Assembly: GCF_029278605.1 (NCBI RefSeq)
Contig: NZ_CP119573.1
Span: forward strand, 186,001 to 250,000
Origin: Cupriavidus sp. WKF15
GTDB taxonomy: Bacteria; Pseudomonadota; Gammaproteobacteria; Burkholderiales; Burkholderiaceae
Direction of reading: 5' to 3'
DNA length: 64,000 nt
Part shown: positions 41,533-50,732 of the stretch, piece after piece
Layout: each line of letters begins with the position of its first letter
Numbering within the stretch: position 1 is the stretch's first letter
Made by a program: the position numbers and the translations under genes
The notes under the pieces: model-generated
What the model was told of the DNA's origin: nothing
Database searches by the model: none
What the model saw: the letters and a program-made list of their open reading frames with translations, nothing else

Positions 41533-42000
41533 ATGAAAGCCGCCACCCCTGACCTTCGCGATTGTTCGATCGCCTCCACGCTGTCGCTGATCGGCGAAAA
41601 GTGGACGATCCTGATCCTGCGCGACGTCTTCCATGGCGTGAACCGCTTTGATGACTTCCTGCGCCGGCTGGAATGTTCGCCCGCCGTCCTCTCCGCCCGC
41701 CTGAAGACGCTGACCGAGGCCGGTTTGCTGCGCCGGGTCGGCTACAAGGAGCCGGGCGAGCGCGAGCGCTTCGAGTACCGGCCGACCCGCGCCGCTGTGG
41801 AACTGCTGCCGGTGCTGGTCGGGCTGATGCAATGGGGCGACCGCCACCTGGCGGCCAACGGCACCGGGCCGGTGGAAATCCGCTCGCGCCGCAATGGCCA
41901 GCGTGTCAGTGCGGCACTGGTCGACGAAGAAGGCCAGCCCGTGTCTCCGTCCGACATGACCGTCATTCGGCTCACGCCACCAGGCACGCCCCAGGACTGA
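41533..42000 (+). CDS. HxlR-family winged-helix transcriptional regulator
   Basis: 155 residues from ATG 41533 (MKAATPDLRDCSIASTLSLIGEKWTILILRD); an upstream in-frame start at 41497 lies inside the operator. The HxlR signature is complete: a redox-capable Cys near the N-terminus (RDCSIA), GEKWTILILRDVFHGVNRFDDFLRRLECSPAVLSARLKTL, and GLLRRVGYKEPGERERFEY. It probably represses the divergent GNAT gene and itself. Confidence 0.92.
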   Translation: MKAATPDLRDCSIASTLSLIGEKWTILILRDVFHGVNRFDDFLRRLECSPAVLSARLKTLTEAGLLRRVGYKEPGERERFEYRPTRAAVELLPVLVGLMQWGDRHLAANGTGPVEIRSRRNGQRVSAALVDEEGQPVSPSDMTVIRLTPPGTPQD

Positions 42001-42033
42001 TTCCCGGCCAGCACCGCGGCGACACATTGCAGC

Positions 42034-42091
42034 GCACCATCACTGTGCCGCGCCGGCGGCTACGCCCCATCGGGGCGCACCAGCACGGTCC
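42034..42091 (+). promoter_or_regulatory. Two NtrC-like binding sites
   Basis: GCAC-N7-GTGC (42034-42048) matches the NtrC core exactly. GCAC-N7-GTCC (42077-42091) matches with one change. Their centres lie about 127 and 84 bases upstream of the predicted sigma-54 start, a normal enhancer distance. Confidence 0.6.
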
Positions 42092-42141
42092 GTACCCTGC
42101 CCATTTGCCGCGAAATACCCCGTTCATCATCACTTCGCCCC

Positions 42142-42156
42142 TGGCACAGCGCTTGC
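42142..42156 (+). promoter_or_regulatory. Sigma-54 (RpoN) promoter of the nitrate assimilation operon
   Basis: TGGCAC-N5-TTGC, a full match to the -24/-12 consensus with GG and GC ten bases apart. The expected transcription start, about 12 bases downstream, falls at 42168, the first base of the leader hairpin. Confidence 0.8.
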
Positions 42157-42167
42157 GTAAATGACGC

Positions 42168-42191
42168 GGGCGGATCAACGGCGATCCGCCC
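42168..42191 (+). promoter_or_regulatory. ANTAR-type hexaloop hairpin at the 5' end of the nas leader
   Basis: A 9-bp perfect stem (GGGCGGATC with GATCCGCCC) closes the hexaloop AACGGC. The loop has A at position 1 and G at position 4, the hallmark of RNA bound by ANTAR antiterminators such as NasR and NasT. It begins at the predicted transcription start. Confidence 0.7.
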
Positions 42192-42202
42192 ACCCCACAA
42201 GC

Positions 42203-42229
42203 GCGGCGGCTATCCCATGTAGCCGCTGT
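42203..42229 (+). promoter_or_regulatory. Second leader hairpin
   Basis: GCGGCTA (42206-42212) pairs with TAGCCGC (42220-42226), extendable by G-U pairs to 42203/42229. The loop is 7 bases (TCCCATG) and lacks the A1/G4 hexaloop pattern, so it is either a diverged second ANTAR hairpin or a spacer stem. Confidence 0.5.
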
Positions 42230-42238
42230 CTGGACAAC

Positions 42239-42289
42239 GGCGTCCCCTGAACCGGCCTCACCCCGGTTTGCGGGACGCCATTTGTTTTT
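42239..42289 (+). terminator. Leader terminator before the nitrate transporter gene
   Basis: GGCGTCCC (42239-42246) pairs with GGGACGCC (42272-42279), with an inner ACCGG/CCGGT stem, followed by ATTTGTTTTT. It lies 38 bases before the first gene and would stop transcription unless antitermination occurs. Confidence 0.8.
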
Positions 42290-42326
42290 GGGCGGTGCGC
42301 ACGCACCGCTCCTCGGAGCGAGAACG

Positions 42327-43640
42327 ATGATTGGCAAAGCCACCCGCATCCACCTGCTGAGCCTCGGCACGCCGCAGATGCGCGCCTTCCACCTGACCTG
42401 GATGGCGTTCTTCGTCTGCTTCTTCGCGTGGTTTGCCTGCGCGCCGCTGATGCCGGTGATCAAGGGCGAGTTCGGCCTCACGCCGGCGCAGATCGCCAAT
42501 ATCAATATCGCCGCGGTGGCGGTGACCATTCTCGTACGGCTCGTGATCGGCCCGATGTGCGACCGCTTCGGCCCGCGCAAGACTTACACCGGCCTGCTGG
42601 CGCTCGGTGCGCTGCCGGTGCTGGGCGTGGCGTTCGCGCAGAGTTACGAGACCTTCCTCGTGTTCCGCCTGCTGATCGGCGCGGTTGGCGCCAGCTTCGT
42701 CATCACGCAGTACCACACCTCGGTCATGTTCGCGCCCAACGTCGTCGGCACCGCCAACGCCGCGGCAGCCGGCTGGGGCAATGCCGGCGGCGGCGCCGCG
42801 CAGGCGCTGATGCCGATGCTGCTGGGCGCCGTGCTGATGCTGGGCGTGGACCAAACCATGGGCTGGCGCGTGGCGCTGCTGGTACCGGGCGTGCTGATGC
42901 TGGCAATGGCCGTCATCTACTGGTGCTTCACGCAGGACTGCCCGGAAGGCAACTACTCCGACATGCGCGCGCGCGGCCAGGCCATCACCGGCAGCGGCAA
43001 GGGCGGCGGCTGGGAAAGCTTCCGTGCCGCCAGCGCCAACTACCGCGTGTGGCTGCTGTTCATTACCTACGGTGCCTGCTTCGGCATCGAGATCTTCATC
43101 CATAACATCGCCGCCACGTTCTACGTGGACCGCTTCGGCCTGAGCCTGAAGGCCGCCGGCCTGGCGGCCGGCAGCTTCGGTCTGCTGGCACTGTTTGCCC
43201 GCGCGCTGGGCGGCTGGCTGTCGGACAAGGCAGCGCGCCGCCGTGGCCTGGATGCGCGCTCGACGCTGCTGTTCGTGCTGATCCTCGGCGAAGGCCTGGG
43301 CCTGCTGTGGTTTGCGCAGGCCGGCAATGTGACGCTGGCTGTGGTTGCCATGCTGCTGTTCGGCCTGTTCACCCACATGGCCTGCGGCGCCACCTATGCA
43401 CTGGTGCCGTTCATCGACCGCAAGGCGCTCGGCGGCGTGGCCGGCATCATCGGCGCCGGCGGCAACGTGGGCGCGGTGGCCGCCGGCTTCCTGCTCAAGG
43501 GCCTGGGCGACCTGCAGCAGACGCTGACCGTGCTGGGCGTGCTGGCGGCACTGTCTGCGTTGTGCGCCATCGCCATCCGCTTCAGCGCCGAGCACAAGGC
43601 GCAGGAACAGGCGCTGTACGACGGCGCGCTGGCCAACTGA
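42327..43640 (+). CDS. Nitrate/nitrite MFS transporter (NarK/NasA type)
   Basis: 437 residues from ATG 42327, preceded by GGAGCGAGA; an earlier in-frame ATG at 42282 is inside the leader terminator and is rejected. About 12 TM segments. The nitrate porter landmarks are FFVCFFAWFACAPLMPVIKGEFGL, VRLVIGPMCDRFGPRKTYTGLLAL, the G-rich WGNAGGGAAQALMP nitrate signature in TM5 and IIGAGGNVGAVAAGFLLKG in TM11. It brings nitrate in for the reductase encoded downstream. It is the first gene of the operon and is controlled by the leader. Confidence 0.93.
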   Translation: MIGKATRIHLLSLGTPQMRAFHLTWMAFFVCFFAWFACAPLMPVIKGEFGLTPAQIANINIAAVAVTILVRLVIGPMCDRFGPRKTYTGLLALGALPVLGVAFAQSYETFLVFRLLIGAVGASFVITQYHTSVMFAPNVVGTANAAAAGWGNAGGGAAQALMPMLLGAVLMLGVDQTMGWRVALLVPGVLMLAMAVIYWCFTQDCPEGNYSDMRARGQAITGSGKGGGWESFRAASANYRVWLLFITYGACFGIEIFIHNIAATFYVDRFGLSLKAAGLAAGSFGLLALFARALGGWLSDKAARRRGLDARSTLLFVLILGEGLGLLWFAQAGNVTLAVVAMLLFGLFTHMACGATYALVPFIDRKALGGVAGIIGAGGNVGAVAAGFLLKGLGDLQQTLTVLGVLAALSALCAIAIRFSAEHKAQEQALYDGALAN

Positions 43641-43707: not shown

Positions 43708-46269
43708 ATGAAACTGATCATCGTCGGCCACGGCATGGTGGGTCACAAATTCCTCGAATCCCTGGCGGACGCCGGCGCGCAGAACCTGGAAGTGACCGTG
43801 CTGTGCGAAGAACCGCGTCCCGCCTACGATCGCGTGCACCTGTCCGAGTTCTTCGCCGGCAAGTCGGCCGATGATCTCTCGCTGGTGCCGGCAGGCTTCT
43901 TCGAGCAGAACAACAACATGCTGCTGCGCCTGAATGCCCGTGCGGTGTCGATCGACCGCGACGCGCGCACTGTGGCGGTGTCGACCGGCGAGACGCTGTC
44001 CTATGACAAGCTGATCCTCGCCACCGGCTCCTATCCCTTCGTGCCGCCGGTGCCCGGCAAGGACCGCAAGGACTGCTTTGTCTATCGCACCATCGAAGAC
44101 CTGGAAGCCATGCGCGAATGCGGCGCGCGCTCCAGGACCGGCGTGGTGATCGGCGGCGGCCTGCTGGGCCTGGAATGCGCCAAGGCACTGCGCGACATGA
44201 ACCTGCAGACCCATGTGGTGGAGTTCGCGCCGCGCCTGATGGCGGTACAGGTCGACGAAGGCGGCGGCCGCATGCTGCGCCAGAAGATCGAAGGCCTGGG
44301 CGTGACCGCCCACACCGGCAAGAACACCGTCGAGATCGTCGACGGCGAAGACGGCACCCACCGCATGGTGTTTGCCGACGGCACGCACCTCGACACCGAC
44401 ATGATCGTGTTCTCGGCCGGCATCCGCCCGCGCGACGAACTGGCCCGTGCGAGCGGCCTGACGGTGGGCGAGCGCGGTGGCATCTCGGTGGACAACCATT
44501 GCCGCACCTCCGACCCGGACATCTACGCCATCGGCGAATGCGCGCTGTGGCAAGGCAAGATCTACGGCCTGGTCGCGCCGGGCTATGACATGGCGCGCGT
44601 AGCTGCCCGCCACCTGCGCGGCGAAGCCGTGGAGTTCGGCGGCGCCGACATGAGCACCAAGCTCAAGCTGATGGGCGTGGACGTCGCCAGCATCGGCGAT
44701 CCGCACGGCGCCGTGCCGGGCGCCCGCATCTACCAGTTCAGCGATGACCGCAAGGAGATCTACAAGAAGCTGGTGGTCTCGGACTGCGGCAAGTACCTGC
44801 TGGGCGGCGTGCTGATCGGCGATGCCAGCGAATACGGCACGCTGCTGCAGATGATGCTGAACAAGATCGAGCTGCCGGAATCGCCCGAGTTCCTGATCCT
44901 GCCCGACAGCAGCGGCAAGGCCAAGCCTGCGCTGGGCGCCGACGCGCTGCCCGACACCGCCCAGATCTGCTCGTGCAACAACGTCTCCAAGGGCGAGATC
45001 TGCGGCGCCGTTTGCGACGGCGCGACCAGCATCGGCGCGCTCAAGACCTGCACCAAGGCCGGTACGGCGTGCGGCGGCTGCGTGCCGCTGGTCACGCAGA
45101 TCATGAAGGCCGAAATGAAGAAGCAGGGCATGGCCGTCAACAACCATCTCTGCGAACACTTCCCGTACTCGCGCCAGGAGCTCTACCACCTGGTGCGCGT
45201 GGGCAAGTTCAAGACCTTTGAAGCGCTGCTCGAAGCGCATGGCAACGGCATGGGCTGCGATATCTGCAAGCCGACCGTGGGCAGCATCCTGGCTTCGTGC
45301 TGGAACGAGTTCGTGCTGAAGGAGGAACACGCCAGCCTGCAGGACTCCAACGACTACTATCTCGCCAATATCCAGAAGGACGGCACCTACTCCGTGGTGC
45401 CGCGCATGCCGGGCGGCGAAGTCACGCCCGAAGGGCTGATCGCCGTGGGCCAGGTGGCCAAGAAGTATGGCCTCTACACCAAGATCACCGGCGGGCAGCG
45501 CGTGGACCTGTTTGGTGCACGCGTCGAGGAACTGCCTTATATCTGGGAAGAACTGATCGCGGCAGGCTTTGAATCGGGCCATGCCTACGGCAAGGCGCTG
45601 CGCACGGTGAAATCTTGCGTCGGCTCCACGTGGTGCCGCTATGGCGTGGACGACTCGGTCGGCCTCGCCGTCGAACTGGAGAACCGCTACAAGGGCCTGC
45701 GCGCCCCGCACAAGATCAAGTTCGGCGTGTCGGGTTGCACGCGCGAATGCGCCGAGGCGCAAGGCAAGGACGTCGGCGTGATCGCCACCGAAAAGGGCTG
45801 GAACCTCTACGTATGCGGCAACGGCGGCATGAAGCCGCGCCACGCCGAGCTGCTGGCCGGCGACCTGGACCGCGAGACGCTGATTCGCTACATCGACCGC
45901 TTCCTGATGTTTTATGTGCGCACCGCCGACCGCCTGCAGCGCACCAGCGTGTGGCGCGACAACCTGGAAGGCGGCCTGGACTACCTGAAGGACGTCGTCC
46001 TCGACGACAAGCTCGGCATCGCCGCCGACATGGAAGCGGAGATGCAGCACGTGGTCGACACCTACGAAGACGAGTGGAAGAAGGCTGTCACCGATCCCGA
46101 GACGCGCAAGCGCTTCCGCCACTTCGTCAACAGCGATCGCCGCGACGAGAACATCGTCTTCATCGAGGAGCGCGGGCAGATCCGCCCGGCCACGGCCGAG
46201 GAACGGAACTTGCGACGTTCCCGCCTGAGCCACATTCCCGTGGTGGCCGTGCCCGCAAAAGCGGCCTGA
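43708..46269 (+). CDS. nirB: Assimilatory NAD(P)H nitrite reductase, large subunit
   Basis: 853 residues, full length for NirB. Domain order: FAD/NAD oxidoreductase (MKLIIVGHGMVGHKFLESL, VVIGGGLLGLECAKAL); BFD-like [2Fe-2S] domain (CSCNNVSKGEICGAV...CGGCVP); then sulfite/nitrite reductase ferredoxin-like and siroheme/[4Fe-4S] domains with the cluster cysteines C-x5-C in KSCVGSTWCRYG and C-x3-C in VSGCTRECAEAQGKD. It reduces nitrite to ammonium in the cytoplasm together with NirD. AAGGA lies 8 bases before ATG 43708. Confidence 0.96.
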   Translation: MKLIIVGHGMVGHKFLESLADAGAQNLEVTVLCEEPRPAYDRVHLSEFFAGKSADDLSLVPAGFFEQNNNMLLRLNARAVSIDRDARTVAVSTGETLSYDKLILATGSYPFVPPVPGKDRKDCFVYRTIEDLEAMRECGARSRTGVVIGGGLLGLECAKALRDMNLQTHVVEFAPRLMAVQVDEGGGRMLRQKIEGLGVTAHTGKNTVEIVDGEDGTHRMVFADGTHLDTDMIVFSAGIRPRDELARASGLTVGERGGISVDNHCRTSDPDIYAIGECALWQGKIYGLVAPGYDMARVAARHLRGEAVEFGGADMSTKLKLMGVDVASIGDPHGAVPGARIYQFSDDRKEIYKKLVVSDCGKYLLGGVLIGDASEYGTLLQMMLNKIELPESPEFLILPDSSGKAKPALGADALPDTAQICSCNNVSKGEICGAVCDGATSIGALKTCTKAGTACGGCVPLVTQIMKAEMKKQGMAVNNHLCEHFPYSRQELYHLVRVGKFKTFEALLEAHGNGMGCDICKPTVGSILASCWNEFVLKEEHASLQDSNDYYLANIQKDGTYSVVPRMPGGEVTPEGLIAVGQVAKKYGLYTKITGGQRVDLFGARVEELPYIWEELIAAGFESGHAYGKALRTVKSCVGSTWCRYGVDDSVGLAVELENRYKGLRAPHKIKFGVSGCTRECAEAQGKDVGVIATEKGWNLYVCGNGGMKPRHAELLAGDLDRETLIRYIDRFLMFYVRTADRLQRTSVWRDNLEGGLDYLKDVVLDDKLGIAADMEAEMQHVVDTYEDEWKKAVTDPETRKRFRHFVNSDRRDENIVFIEERGQIRPATAEERNLRRSRLSHIPVVAVPAKAA

Positions 46270-46317
46270 ATGCAGCCTGAAAGCAGCCCGAATCCAACGA
46301 AAGCGAAGGAGAACGTG

Positions 46318-46701
46318 ATGAGCCATTCCCACCATCCCGAAACCTGGACCGCGATCTGCACCTTGCGCGATATCGCGCCCAATACTGGTGTCTGCGCCCT
46401 GGTCGACGACCAGCAAGTGGCCGTGTTCCGCATCGGCCGCGGCGAAGAGGTCTACGCGATCGACAATTTCGACCCGAACTCGCAGGCGGCGGTACTGTCG
46501 CGCGGGCTGGTCGGCAACCTGGGCGAGCGCCTGGTGGTGGCTTCGCCGATCTACAAGCAGCACTTCGACCTGCGCACCGGCGAATGCCTGGAAGCGCCGG
46601 AGCACTCGGTCAACGCCTACCCGGCACGCGTCTATGACGGCAAGGTCTGGGTCGCCGCCGACGTGACCGTGAACGAAGTCGAGGAAGAGCTGGCAGCCTG
46701 A
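46318..46701 (+). CDS. nirD: Assimilatory nitrite reductase, small subunit
   Basis: 127 residues with a Rieske-like fold: TWTAICTLRDIAPNTGVCALVDDQQVAVFRIG, YAIDNFDPNSQAAVLSRGLVG and SPIYKQHFDLRTGECLEAP. As is normal for NirD, the Cys-x-His pairs of true Rieske clusters are absent. ATG 46318 follows GAAGGAGAA; it lies 48 bases after nirB. It partners NirB. Confidence 0.95.
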   Translation: MSHSHHPETWTAICTLRDIAPNTGVCALVDDQQVAVFRIGRGEEVYAIDNFDPNSQAAVLSRGLVGNLGERLVVASPIYKQHFDLRTGECLEAPEHSVNAYPARVYDGKVWVAADVTVNEVEEELAA

Positions 46702-46730
46702 CACCCATGTTCCTGACGGAGACCCTGCGC

Positions 46731-47972
46731 ATGACGCCATCCGCCCCCTCGCAACCCCGGCCCCGGCTGGTCGTCGTCGGCAACGGCATGGCCGGCATGC
46801 GCACGGTCGAGGAACTGCTCAAGCTGGCCCCGGACCTGTACGACATCACCGTGTTCGGCGCCGAGCCGCACGGCAACTACAACCGGATCCTGCTGTCGCC
46901 GGTGCTGGCCGGCGAGAAGACCGTCGATGACATCATGCTCAATACGCGCGACTGGTACGCGCAGAACGGCATCGAACTGCTGGCCGGCGACCCGGTGGTG
47001 GCCATCGACCGTCCGCGCCGCACAGTGCGCGCGCAGTCCGGGCGCGAGGTGCGCTATGACCGGCTGCTGCTCGCGACCGGCTCCAAGCCCTTCATCCTGC
47101 CGGTGCCCGGCCACCAGCTCGAGGGCGTGATTGCGTTTCGCGATATCCAGGATGTCGAGACCATGCTGCACGCCGCGCGCAACCATCGCCACGCCGTGGT
47201 GATCGGTGGCGGCCTGCTCGGGCTGGAAGCCGCCAACGGCCTGCTGCGCCAGGGCATGGACGTGACCGTCGTGCACCTGTGCGACAGCCTGATGGAGCGG
47301 CAGCTCGACAAGCCCGCCGCGACCCTGCTCAAGGGCGCGCTGGAACGCAAGGGCCTGCGCTTCATGCTGGGCGCGCAGACCGGCGAGATTCTCGGGGACA
47401 CGCGCGTGACCGGCGTGCGTTTCAAGGATGGCAGCGAAATCCCGGCCGACCTGGTGGTGATGACCGCCGGCGTGCGCCCGAACACCGAACTCGCGGCCGG
47501 CGCCGGCCTGCGCTGCGAACGCGCCATCGTGGTCGATGACACGCTGCAGACCTATGACCCGCGCATCTACGCCGTCGGCGAATGCGTGCAGCACCGCCAG
47601 GCCACCTTCGGCCTGGTCGCGCCGATCTGGGACCAGGCGCGTGTGTGCGCCGCGCACCTGGCCGGCTCGGGCCATCGCCGCTACATCCAGCAAGCCACGG
47701 CGACCAAGCTCAAGGTGACTGGCGTCGACCTGTATTCGGCCGGCGACTTCGTCGGCAGCGAAGGCAGCGAAGACCTCGTACTGCGCGACGCGCGGCGCGG
47801 TGTCTACAAGCGGCTGGTGCTGCAGGACGGCTGCCTGGTCGGCGCCGTACTGTACGGCGACGTGCAGGATGGTCCGTGGTACTTCGAGCTGATCCAGCAA
47901 CGCGCACCGGTCGCGTCATTGCGCCAGCGCCTGCTGTTCGGCAAGGCCCAGTGCGAGGCGCTTGCCGCCTGA
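46731..47972 (+). CDS. FAD/NAD-dependent electron-transfer subunit of assimilatory nitrate reductase (NasC/NirB N-terminal type)
   Basis: 413 residues from ATG 46731, after GGAGACC; ATG 46707 without Shine-Dalgarno is less likely. Two dinucleotide loops are seen: LVVVGNGMAGMRTVEELLKL (FAD) and AVVIGGGLLGLEAANGLLRQG (NAD). FAD motif IYAVGECVQHRQATFGLVAPIWDQA follows. The protein matches the N-terminal oxidoreductase half of NirB, which suggests an origin by duplication, and it would pass electrons from NAD(P)H to NasA, as NasC does in Klebsiella. It ends 39 bases before nasA. Confidence 0.85.
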   Translation: MTPSAPSQPRPRLVVVGNGMAGMRTVEELLKLAPDLYDITVFGAEPHGNYNRILLSPVLAGEKTVDDIMLNTRDWYAQNGIELLAGDPVVAIDRPRRTVRAQSGREVRYDRLLLATGSKPFILPVPGHQLEGVIAFRDIQDVETMLHAARNHRHAVVIGGGLLGLEAANGLLRQGMDVTVVHLCDSLMERQLDKPAATLLKGALERKGLRFMLGAQTGEILGDTRVTGVRFKDGSEIPADLVVMTAGVRPNTELAAGAGLRCERAIVVDDTLQTYDPRIYAVGECVQHRQATFGLVAPIWDQARVCAAHLAGSGHRRYIQQATATKLKVTGVDLYSAGDFVGSEGSEDLVLRDARRGVYKRLVLQDGCLVGAVLYGDVQDGPWYFELIQQRAPVASLRQRLLFGKAQCEALAA

Positions 47973-48011: not shown

Positions 48012-50732
48012 GTGAATCTGTCCGACATCCCGGTGGTATCCGCCACCCCGACCACTACCACCGCCACCACCTGCCCCTACTGCGGCGTCGGCTGCGGCGT
48101 GCGCGCCACGGTACGCGCCGACGGGCAGGTCGAGATTGCCGGGGATGCGGAGCATCCATCCAATCGAGGCAGGCTGTGTGTCAAGGGCTCCGCCCTTGGC
48201 GAGACGGTGGACCTGCAAGGCCGCCTGCTGCATCCGAAGGTGCGCGGCGCGGACGGCACGCTCGAACAGGTCTCGTGGGACCACGCGCTCGACACCGTCG
48301 CGCAAGGGTTCTCGCGCATCGTCCGCGAACATGGCCCCGATGCCGTCGCCCTCTATGTCTCCGGGCAGTTGCTGACCGAGGACTACTACGTCGCCAACAA
48401 GCTGATGAAGGGCTTCATCGGCACCGCCAATATCGACACCAACTCGCGCCTGTGCATGTCATCGGCCGTGGCCGGCCACAAGCGCGCGTTCGGTGAAGAC
48501 CTGGTGCCGGGCAACTACGAAGACCTGGAACTGGCCGACCTGGTGGTACTGGTCGGGTCCAACACGGCCTGGTGCCATCCGATCGTGTTCCAGCGCCTGG
48601 TCAAGGCCAAGGAGGCGCGGCCGGAAATGAAGATCGTCGCCATCGACCCGCGCCGCACGGCCACCTGCGAGCTGGCCGACCTGCACCTGGCGGTACGGCC
48701 CGGCACCGATGTCTGGCTCTTCAACGGGCTGCTGAGCTACCTCGCGCGAGAAGGCAAGGCCGACACCGCCTTCGTCGGAGCCAGCACGTCTGGGCTCGAT
48801 GATGCGCTGAAGGCCACCGTCGACTGCGATGACGCCAAGGCTGTTGCGCGCGCCTGCAAGCTCGATGTCGAGGACGTGCTGGCCTTCTATCGCCTGTTCG
48901 CCGATACCGAGAAGGTCGTCACGGCCTTCTCGCAAGGCGTCAACCAGTCGTCCGCCGGCACCGACAAGGTCAACAGCATCATCAACTGCCACCTGCTGAC
49001 CGGCCGCATCGGCCGCGCGGGCATGGGCCCGTTTTCGCTGACCGGGCAGCCGAATGCGATGGGCGGCCGCGAGGTCGGCGGCCTGGCCAATATGCTGGCC
49101 GCGCATATGGAGCTGGCCAACCCGCTGCATCGGGGCATCGTGCAGGACCTGTGGCAATCGCCGGTCATGGCCGACCGCGCGGGCCTCAAGGCGGTGGAAC
49201 TGTTCAATGCGATCGAGCAAGGCCGGGTCAAGGCCGTATGGGTGATCGCCACCAATCCCGTGGTCAGCCTGCCCGATGCCGACCAGGTGCGCCGCGCACT
49301 GGCCAAGTGTGAATTGGTGGTCAGTTCCGACATCATCGAGCGCACCGACACCAATGACGCCGCCCACGTGCTGCTGCCGGCGCTAGGCTGGGGCGAGAAG
49401 GACGGCACGGTCACCAATTCGGAGCGCCGCATCTCGCGCCAGCGCGCTTTCCTGCCAGCGCCGGGCGAGGCGCGCGCCGACTGGCGCATCCTGTGCGACG
49501 TGGCCCGGCGCATGGGCTTTGCCGGCTTCGACTACGCCGGACCGCACGAGATCTTCGACGAGCATGCGCGCCTGAGCGCCTGGCGCAATGACGAGGCGCC
49601 GCGCGCATTCGATATCGGCGGCATGGCCGGCATGGACAAGGAAAGCTATGACACCTTCGAACCCGTGCAATGGCCGGTGGTGGCGGGTTCGCCCGCGGGG
49701 ACGCGCCGGCTGTTCGAGGATGGGCGATTCGCCCATGCCGATGGACTGGCGCACTTCGTCGCCACGCCGACGCGTGCGCCGGCAAACGCGCCGGATGGTG
49801 ACTATCCGCTGATCCTCAACACTGGCCGCGTACGCGACCAGTGGCACACCATGACACGCACCGGCAAGTCGGCCCGCCTTGCGGACCACCTGCCCGAGCC
49901 CTTCGTCGACATGCATCCGCAGGATGCGTTGCTGTGCGGCCTGGGCGAAGGCAAGCTCGCGCGTGTCTCCACGCGCTGGGGCGCCATGGTGGCACGCGTG
50001 CGGCACGGCGGCGGCATTCCGCGCGGCAGCGTGTTCGTGCCGATCCACTGGAACGGGCAGTTCAGCTCCGATGCGCGCGTCGGCGCGCTCGTGAACCCGG
50101 TGGTCGACCCGATGTCCGGCGAACCCGAGTTCAAGCACACGCCGGTGTGCGTGGAGCCGTTCGGCGTCAACTGGCACGGCTTCGTGCTGAGCCGCAAGGA
50201 ACTGCCAGCCGATACCCTCACCTACTGGACGCGCGTGCAGGGGCACCGGTTCCAGCGCTACGAATTTGCCGGGCGCGAAGCCATTGCCGACCGTGCCGCA
50301 TGGGCGCGCAGCCTGCTCGGCGTGACCGACCCGGATGCAGACTGGCTTGAGTACGAAGACCGAAGCGCGGGCACCTATCACGCGGGCTATGTCGTCAACG
50401 ACAGGCTGGAAGCGTGCGTCTACATTGCCACCCGGCCGGAACTACCCTCGCGCTCCTGGCTGGCGGAGCTGTTCGGACGCGAACGGCTGGAGGACACGGA
50501 CCGCATCGGCCTGCTGATGGGGCAACCGATGCAGAAGGGCGCCGATGCCGGCCCCACGGTGTGCTCATGCTTCGGCGTGGGCCGCAACACCATTTGCGAC
50601 GCGGTGCGCAAGCACGGCCTGACCACCCCGGCCGAGATTACGGCCTGCGTCAAGGCCGGCGGCAACTGCGGCTCGTGCGTGCCGGAGTTGAAGAAGCTGC
50701 TGGTGGAGGTACGGGTGGCGGAGGCTGCCTGA
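48012..50732 (+). CDS. nasA: Assimilatory nitrate reductase catalytic subunit (molybdopterin, [4Fe-4S], BFD tail)
   Basis: 906 residues from GTG 48012 after GGAGAAAG. The N-terminal [4Fe-4S] ligands are C21-x2-C24-x3-C28 and C56 (CPYCGVGCG...RGRLCVKG). The probable molybdenum Cys is C148 in NIDTNSRLCMSSAVAGHKRAFG. Bis-MGD segments VVLVGSNTAWCHPI, VIATNPVVSLPDADQVRRAL and NTGRVRDQWHTMTRTGKSA follow. A C-terminal BFD [2Fe-2S] domain (CSCFGVGRNTICDAV...CGSCVPELKKLL) accepts electrons. It reduces nitrate to nitrite in the cytoplasm and is the last gene of the operon. Confidence 0.95.
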   Translation: MNLSDIPVVSATPTTTTATTCPYCGVGCGVRATVRADGQVEIAGDAEHPSNRGRLCVKGSALGETVDLQGRLLHPKVRGADGTLEQVSWDHALDTVAQGFSRIVREHGPDAVALYVSGQLLTEDYYVANKLMKGFIGTANIDTNSRLCMSSAVAGHKRAFGEDLVPGNYEDLELADLVVLVGSNTAWCHPIVFQRLVKAKEARPEMKIVAIDPRRTATCELADLHLAVRPGTDVWLFNGLLSYLAREGKADTAFVGASTSGLDDALKATVDCDDAKAVARACKLDVEDVLAFYRLFADTEKVVTAFSQGVNQSSAGTDKVNSIINCHLLTGRIGRAGMGPFSLTGQPNAMGGREVGGLANMLAAHMELANPLHRGIVQDLWQSPVMADRAGLKAVELFNAIEQGRVKAVWVIATNPVVSLPDADQVRRALAKCELVVSSDIIERTDTNDAAHVLLPALGWGEKDGTVTNSERRISRQRAFLPAPGEARADWRILCDVARRMGFAGFDYAGPHEIFDEHARLSAWRNDEAPRAFDIGGMAGMDKESYDTFEPVQWPVVAGSPAGTRRLFEDGRFAHADGLAHFVATPTRAPANAPDGDYPLILNTGRVRDQWHTMTRTGKSARLADHLPEPFVDMHPQDALLCGLGEGKLARVSTRWGAMVARVRHGGGIPRGSVFVPIHWNGQFSSDARVGALVNPVVDPMSGEPEFKHTPVCVEPFGVNWHGFVLSRKELPADTLTYWTRVQGHRFQRYEFAGREAIADRAAWARSLLGVTDPDADWLEYEDRSAGTYHAGYVVNDRLEACVYIATRPELPSRSWLAELFGRERLEDTDRIGLLMGQPMQKGADAGPTVCSCFGVGRNTICDAVRKHGLTTPAEITACVKAGGNCGSCVPELKKLLVEVRVAEAA

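Follow-up and report, generated by a model that had tools for sequence, protein, structure and literature searches.

How do the bases in front of a nitrate-assimilation operon of Cupriavidus sp. WKF15 decide whether the operon is read? We addressed this question by computational analysis of a window of 64,000 nucleotides (the whole stretch of DNA analyzed; C2:186001-250000 in a three-contig genome of 7.38 Mb). The initial annotation of region 42034..42326 had placed NtrC sites, a sigma-54 promoter, an ANTAR hairpin, a second hairpin and a terminator one after another, and had predicted that nitrogen limitation starts transcription and that nitrate, through an ANTAR protein, lets it pass the terminator. 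The elements do stand in this order and are conserved; one element, a hairpin that we call P3, had been left out. We explain the region as the doubly controlled promoter and leader of an operon for nitrate assimilation, a two-step switch in which NtrC and sigma-54 would start transcription and NasT would act as an antiterminator via hairpins P1 and P3. To this explanation as a whole we assign a probability of about 0.85.

The features of the region and operon are collected in Table 1. Among the matches listed, the closest named relatives of the transporter come from Cupriavidus (C. yeoncheonensis, 97%). The nitrate reductase is assigned an assimilatory role because of its operon context. Between the terminator and the ribosome-binding site lies a palindrome, GCGGTGCG-CA-CGCACCGC (window 42292-42309), in a region that is of similar length in L002 and 21-25 bases shorter in L003-L009 and L011. 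Conservation was examined in 80 named loci that code for a transporter relative (the best 80 of at least 573 confirmed), which together with the window give 81 leaders.

Table 1. Features of the regulatory region, the operon and the sister leaders (window positions unless a contig is given)
Feature	Position	Strand	Basis
NtrC-type site GCACCATCACTGTGC, centre -127	42034..42048	+	exact GCAC-N7-GTGC
Imperfect second NtrC-like site GCACCAGCACGGTCC, centre -84	42077..42091	+	3/12 mismatches to TGCACC-N5-GGTGCA; weak
Sigma-54 -24/-12 promoter TGGCACAGCGCTTGC (TGGCAC-N5-TTGC)	42142..42156	+	pattern match; predicted +1 at 42168
P1, 9-bp hairpin, hexaloop AACGGC (42177-42182), C-G closing pair	42168..42191	+	sequence, predicted fold
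M, middle hairpin, 11 bp, 5-nt loop, no hexaloop	42203..42229	+	predicted fold
P3, second ANTAR hairpin GGAC-AACGGC-GTCC, loop 42236-42241, antiterminator half	42232..42245	+	predicted fold
Intrinsic terminator GGCGTCCC...GGGACGCC, -26.9 kcal/mol, 42239-42245 common to P3	42239..42279	+	predicted fold
T-rich tail ATTTGTTTTT	42280..42289	+	sequence
NarK-type nitrate/nitrite MFS transporter	42327..43640	+	TIGR00886 308.2 bits, slightly below cut-off 311.7; MFS_1
nirB, nitrite reductase large subunit	43708..46269	+	TIGR02374 1155 bits, cut-off 578
nirD, nitrite reductase small subunit	46315..46701	+	TIGR02378 124.7 bits, cut-off 74.65
FAD reductase like N-terminal half of NirB	46707..47972	+	TIGR02374 455 bits, below cut-off
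Molybdopterin nitrate reductase, probably assimilatory	48012..50732	+	TIGR01591 496 bits, NF047855 469 bits, both below cut-off
Sister leader before nrtABC	C1:383495-383579 (L082:4496-4578)	-	model 34.7 bits; directly behind NasT gene
Sister leader before formate/nitrite channel gene	C2:50883-50997 (L102)		model 30.2 bits
Sister leader before PilJ-domain genes	C2:1616249-1616335 (L143)	-	model 26.9 bits

Promoter and leader RNA

The promoter pattern TGGCAC-N5-TTGC occurs twice in the window (0.32 expected), once where the initial annotation had reported it, and 71 of the 77 P3-bearing leaders (window plus 80 loci) contain a -24/-12 site. A pattern scan of 41900-42400 found no sigma-70-like site. 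We set +1 at 42168, the first base of the P1 stem, by assuming the customary sigma-54 spacing; the annotation's predicted start at the first base of the 9-bp AACGGC stem thus agrees with the putative start derived here. The GCAC-N7-GTGC site is likewise present as annotated. Its count alone was dropped as evidence, since the window's 4 matches do not exceed chance (4.77 expected). Among relatives, the best NtrC-like site upstream of the promoter has no more than 3/12 mismatches in 65 of 71 upstream regions; 12.8% of dinucleotide shuffles reach the same level, a figure that is not a probability, the upstream sequences being kin. The genome encodes one RpoN, and the search for NtrC gave one match above cut-off and 20 more below. 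Sites and regulator genes together are consistent with the predicted start of the sigma-54/NtrC type.

The leader is predicted to fold with -68.3 kcal/mol (z -6.83), a stability equaled by none of 200 shuffles, and M (42203-42229) and the terminator (42239-42279) are both present in this fold. P1 and P3 both qualify as ANTAR hairpins: each has a stem of at least 3 bp and the A1/G4 hexaloop AACGGC, closed by a C-G pair (C42176-G42183 in P1, C42235-G42242 in P3). The initial annotation had taken M for the second ANTAR hairpin. This was mistaken; P3 carries the standard AACGGC loop and sits in the 5' arm of the terminator. The strong terminator with its T-run before the transporter gene was correctly recognized, as 42239-42279 followed by ATTTGTTTTT in the predicted fold. 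A simple terminator scan of 41900-42400 found none, probably because its rule demands one unbroken stem.

The 3' part of P3 doubles as the start of the terminator 5' arm (42239-42245), and because these bases are common to both, P3 and the terminator are mutually exclusive in the computed folds. This places the switch at P3, inside the terminator arm; in our model, the overlap is how the switch works. When the RNA was folded at increasing lengths, P3 was present at 3' ends 42245, 42247, 42260, 42270 and 42275 and absent at 42279 and 42289. Forcing P3 costs 13.3 kcal/mol relative to the terminator form, even in the best such fold, so that something must hold P3.

Conservation of the leader and its middle hairpin

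P3 is found in 77 of the 81 leaders. In all 77, the four bases of its 3' arm are paired into a downstream stem with a T-rich stretch after it. Searching both strands of the 80 related loci (569,896 bases) gave 81 occurrences of the 14-mer GGACAANGGCGTCC, of which 76 lie no more than 400 bases upstream of the transporter. The leaders without P3 (L058, L063, L070 and L074, from Nevskia/Solimonas) show hexaloop-like hairpins after a -24/-12-like site. Inspection by eye revealed no terminator before their start codons, and they are possibly under translational control.

Of the 77 P3-bearing leaders, 71 have a P1 by an automatic rule, which assigns it wrongly in L045 and L061; the rule misses L017, L018, L027, L057, L065 and L076, which have a mismatch near the loop. 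We aligned 45 leaders drawn from 67 distinct ones having promoter and P3. Eight of the nine P1 pairs change on both sides, and the outer four fail in 18-21 of the 45. Over the whole structure, 77.1% of cells pair, compared with 71.3% in shuffled and at most 43.6% in slid alignments; by one of five measures, the number of further pair types, the alignment is no better than shuffles (273/500). The P3 stem has no covariation support, its pairs never varying in the alignments, and this invariance is in part due to the picking of leaders by P3 sequence.

The middle hairpin was followed in the 30 highest-scoring Cupriavidus leaders (one per genome, 40 genomes having been searched; located by P3; the P1 pattern used on this set misreads L108). 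All 30 have a hairpin without a hexaloop at the M position, in keeping with the annotation's remark that its second hairpin lacks the standard loop. Of the 11 M pairs, eight vary on both sides, and pairing is kept in 93.2% of cells (28 distinct sequences); for M and P3 together, 95.0% of cells pair, compared with 84.8% when shuffled and 52.6% at best when slid. In these sequences M is conserved as a stem, not as a loop. By an automatic rule, 44 of the 77 leaders have an extra A1/G4 hexaloop before P3 (L045 wrongly). Among the 44 are 41 of 45 leaders that we take to be from Oxalobacteraceae (sorted by locus titles and the family of each genus); in these a hexaloop hairpin occupies the M position, usually making three.

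The linker between P1 and P3 is 40 nt here, with a median of 38 over 71 leaders. This falls outside the usual short ranges: in the Enterococcus faecalis eut leaders the linker is described as 5-12 nt, with 14 nt already failing (PMC3369931), and a curation of actinobacterial ANTAR targets took linkers of 2-25 nt (PMC8164766). A short linker is not part of the 2012 definition of ANTAR targets, which is worded 'variable linker' (PMC3369931). A hairpin that folds the excess linker away is the simplest explanation of M, and so long and structured a linker puts to the test the view that an ANTAR dimer requires two hairpins close together.

Regulators, sister leaders and alternative explanations

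The genome contains one ANTAR protein (C1:383799-383954). It has no NIT domain and is of the NasT type; its residues 68-244 match 6wsh ('Response regulator'), and it fits the solved response-regulator antiterminators. Of the two regulator types that the initial annotation had offered, NasT thus fits and NasR does not, the sole ANTAR protein being without a NIT domain. The genome search that it had suggested for nasS and nasT yielded the NasT-type gene and not its NasS partner. The P3/terminator overlap and the single ANTAR gene lend support to the predicted ANTAR-controlled read-through.

We propose the following sequence of events. Under nitrogen shortage, NtrC and sigma-54 RNA polymerase would start transcription at ~42168. 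The emerging RNA would fold P1, then M, then P3, and P3 would last until the terminator 3' arm is made before yielding to the much stronger terminator, so that transcription would by default stop short of the transporter gene. When active, a NasT dimer would grip the AACGGC loops of P1 and P3 and keep P3 closed; the terminator then could not form and the operon would be read. M, as a structured spacer, would take up most of the 40-nt linker in its fold and so allow one dimer to reach both loops. Counting against this explanation are the long linker, Rfam scores below gathering thresholds (see below), the absent NasS, and a result from Paracoccus, where mutation of hairpin HII is described as hardly lowering expression with nitrate and raising it 2-fold with ammonium (PMC5424462).

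A covariance model built from the 45 leaders gave 29 matches in the genome at E <=10 (150 of 3420 candidates scored). Four leaders are credible, a count that covers the best six matches, the other 23 lying at E >=0.4: the window leader (72.1 bits) and three sisters (Table 1). Two matches were rejected, one opposite a 309-codon reading frame (C1:2080242, E 3.8e-4) and one inside an apparent leuS gene as judged by eye (C1:3033002, E 0.08). Every sister carries a -24/-12-like site together with a hairpin close to +1, and in their predicted folds 4/4, 3/4 and 6/6 bases of the P3 3' arm are paired into a terminator-like stem. NasT is also predicted to control the uptake of nitrate, a channel for nitrite/formate and proteins with PilJ domains.

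In this genome the nrtABC leader contains three hairpins with A1/G4 hexaloops, and its P3, the same as in the window leader, again overlaps a terminator. The middle hexaloop hairpin is present in 16 of 21 such leaders read (our own plus 20 of the genus; 4-bp rule), and the P3-terminator overlap is complete in 20/20 genus leaders. Alignment A2, which covers 19 of the 21, shows changes on both sides for three middle pairs, in 11 cells compared with 2.5 when shuffled; 179 of 500 shuffles reach this number of pairs and none this number of cells. A model match lies directly upstream of nrtA in 34 of 38 genus genomes (not G019, G027, G031 and G033).

The channel leader deviates: its promoter site ends ATGC, and its P1 loop, GATGAC, has no A1. 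The channel gene occurs in 4 of 40 genus members (E 1e-60). In three of these (G004, G008 and G036) it stands directly behind a NIT-ANTAR gene and P3 reads GGAT[AG]ACG[AG]CGTCC; here, without NasR, P3 reads GGACAACGGCGTCC, the same as in the nas and nrtA leaders. The pattern, in four sequences only, suggests a change of regulator. No remains of a NasR gene were found before the channel gene here above E 0.41. The first PilJ gene is present in 10 of 40 genomes (11 loci), with a P3-type hairpin in 8/11 loci (4-bp rule) and a -24/-12 site in 9/11 (lax pattern). One genome has two PilJ copies, with a linker of ~6 nt near a NIT-ANTAR gene (L182) and a long one in the other (L191). The PilJ domain of McpN is described as binding nitrate (PMC6381276).

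NasS has been described as NrtA-like and without a signal (PMC3795266). We found no cytoplasmic NasS in the genome, only NrtA, whose start GRRRALATIAGA appears by eye to be signal-like, probably a twin-arginine signal. A second PF13379 match (C1:1263202) was rejected as NasS, having a signal-like start by eye and 24% identity to NrtA over 252 positions. NrtA is present in 38 of 40 Cupriavidus genomes (E 1e-20), and in 34 of the 38 there is no second NrtA/NasS homologue. The other four have one (36% identity), which lies on a different contig from the ANTAR matches listed for its genome or 249 kb or more away from them. NasS should be detectable, because signal-less homologues from other families (L155, L162 and L163) match NrtA at 40-49% identity. 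The ANTAR gene is directly upstream of nrtA in 36 of the 38 genomes, as read from gene positions; the exceptions, G008 and G036, both have a NasR-type gene. Besides our own, two nrtA-adjacent regulators were translated (L139 and L140) and are NasT-type in appearance.

With no NasS partner found, we can only infer that nitrate acts through NasT here, and nitrate sensing by NasT becomes a direct genetic question. We consider it unlikely that NasT in this genus does not respond to nitrate, the leader being opened constitutively or by another signal and NtrC providing the main regulation. Such a reading draws on the missing NasS and on a review-type paper according to which c-di-GMP lowers the affinity of NasT for NalA in P. 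putida (PMC12830290); the retention of the ANTAR gene beside nrtA in 36/38 genomes and the four leaders here that precede nitrate/nitrite-related genes argue against it.

Speculatively, and with more doubt than conviction, NrtA might do both jobs, so that Cupriavidus NasT lost NasS, with the RNA a separate three-hairpin variant. NrtA appears to leave the cytoplasm already folded, through the twin-arginine route; its cytoplasmic, nitrate-free precursor could hold NasT, which nitrate would release. Uptake and sensing would then form one loop, because nrtA sits behind a NasT leader. On the RNA side, three hairpins, two or three with ANTAR loops, would serve at least four operons. In a class-wide sample, ANTAR proteins occur in 27 of 94 genomes, and an NrtA-like gene lies alongside 15 of the 29 ANTAR loci outside our own; by eye, 12 of these neighbors have a signal-like start and three do not. 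The ANTAR genes of L161 and L170, apparently NasR-type by frame length and a short NasT match, also adjoin NrtA-like genes, which weakens adjacency as evidence for an NrtA sensor.

Returning to NasT acting through P1 and P3, M does occupy the place of the hexaloop hairpin of Oxalobacteraceae, as would be expected if P1 and M were the ANTAR pair, or P1 alone sufficed, and the terminator were separate; given that M lacks an A1/G4 hexaloop in 30/30 Cupriavidus leaders and that P3, with a loop of the standard type, overlaps the terminator in the same 30 (located by P3), we regard this arrangement as quite improbable. Still harder to defend is a leader working without protein, such as a riboswitch responding to nitrate or some other small molecule: the leader is stable and has alternative folds, but the ANTAR-type loops and the P3/terminator overlap are what stays invariant in it, and a sister leader directly adjoins the ANTAR gene. 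Control by a NasR-type (NIT-ANTAR) regulator, a protein that some Cupriavidus do have (G004, G008 and G016 by Pfam, G036 by 70% identity), is scarcely credible in a genome whose one ANTAR protein has no NIT domain.

Comparison with known systems

Layered control by sigma-54/NtrC and NasT is not new: it matches that of the Pseudomonas NalA leader, which we take to be the same RNA as Rfam P11 (RF00625) and for which the reference is reportedly Romeo et al. 2012. What is new here is that the linker is structured and 40 nt long, that the regulon is wider and that NasS is missing. Among the papers listed in a search of the literature, mostly outside subscription journals, none was on NasT without NasS, three-hairpin ANTAR leaders or narK RNA.

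NalA, the nirBD leader, is described as having a sigma-54 promoter started by phosphorylated NtrC and as being opened by NasT (PMC12830290); a genome paper describes -24/-12 boxes and a terminator, and no NtrC palindromes in that strain (PMC3973561). The leader described here resembles NalA/P11 in its hexaloop P1 and in the predicted roles of a sigma-54 promoter, NtrC and NasT as antiterminator, and the P11 model also has a middle hairpin and GGACAAAGGCGUCC running into the terminator. In contrast to NalA/P11, the linker is longer here (32 bases compared with 14 model positions in the unaligned stretch), NasS was not found, and the operon starts with a NarK-type transporter.

At gathering scores, Rfam yields nothing in the window or in 20 of the 80 related loci, and at up to E 0.5 nothing in the three sister loci. 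In a lax search of the leader alone, P11 aligns with 42130-42279 at 24.9 bits (gathering 70), and narK RNA (RF03032) matches 42143-42209 at 35.8 bits (E 1.5e-5, gathering 43.2). Among relatives searched in the same lax way, L041 shows narK RNA and P11 weakly and L045 neither at E 0.1. Like the region studied here, narK RNA has the promoter and a P1 with loop AACGGC; its model ends before P3, and 25 of the matched bases precede the predicted start, so that the narK transcript probably begins near P1. The narK RNA model apparently takes in DNA of a sigma-54 promoter, and its hairpin resembles an ANTAR P1, which suggests a function for at least part of this orphan family.

The NasS-NasT system of Paracoccus likewise combines a NasT-type regulator with a hairpin leader (PMC3795266; PMC5424462), whereas here NasS was not found and nasT is followed by NrtA with a probable export signal. 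Klebsiella NasR-nasF (PMC7496416) has the same RNA logic and the same type of target operon, but NasR senses nitrate by its own NIT domain, and no such protein is present here. The logic of two hairpins, the second competing with a terminator, was set out by Ramesh et al. 2012 (PMC3369931), and SELEX showed that a C-G pair closes the loops of ANTAR targets (PMC7496416). As described in these papers, the targets of EutV, NasR and AmiR resemble the present leader in their two A1/G4 hexaloop hairpins, C-G closing pairs and a second hairpin exclusive with the terminator (PMC3369931; PMC7496416). Unlike the two-hairpin antiterminator, the leader described here has a 40-nt linker that holds a third, covarying hairpin, and many Oxalobacteraceae nas leaders and many Cupriavidus nrtABC leaders have three hexaloop hairpins.
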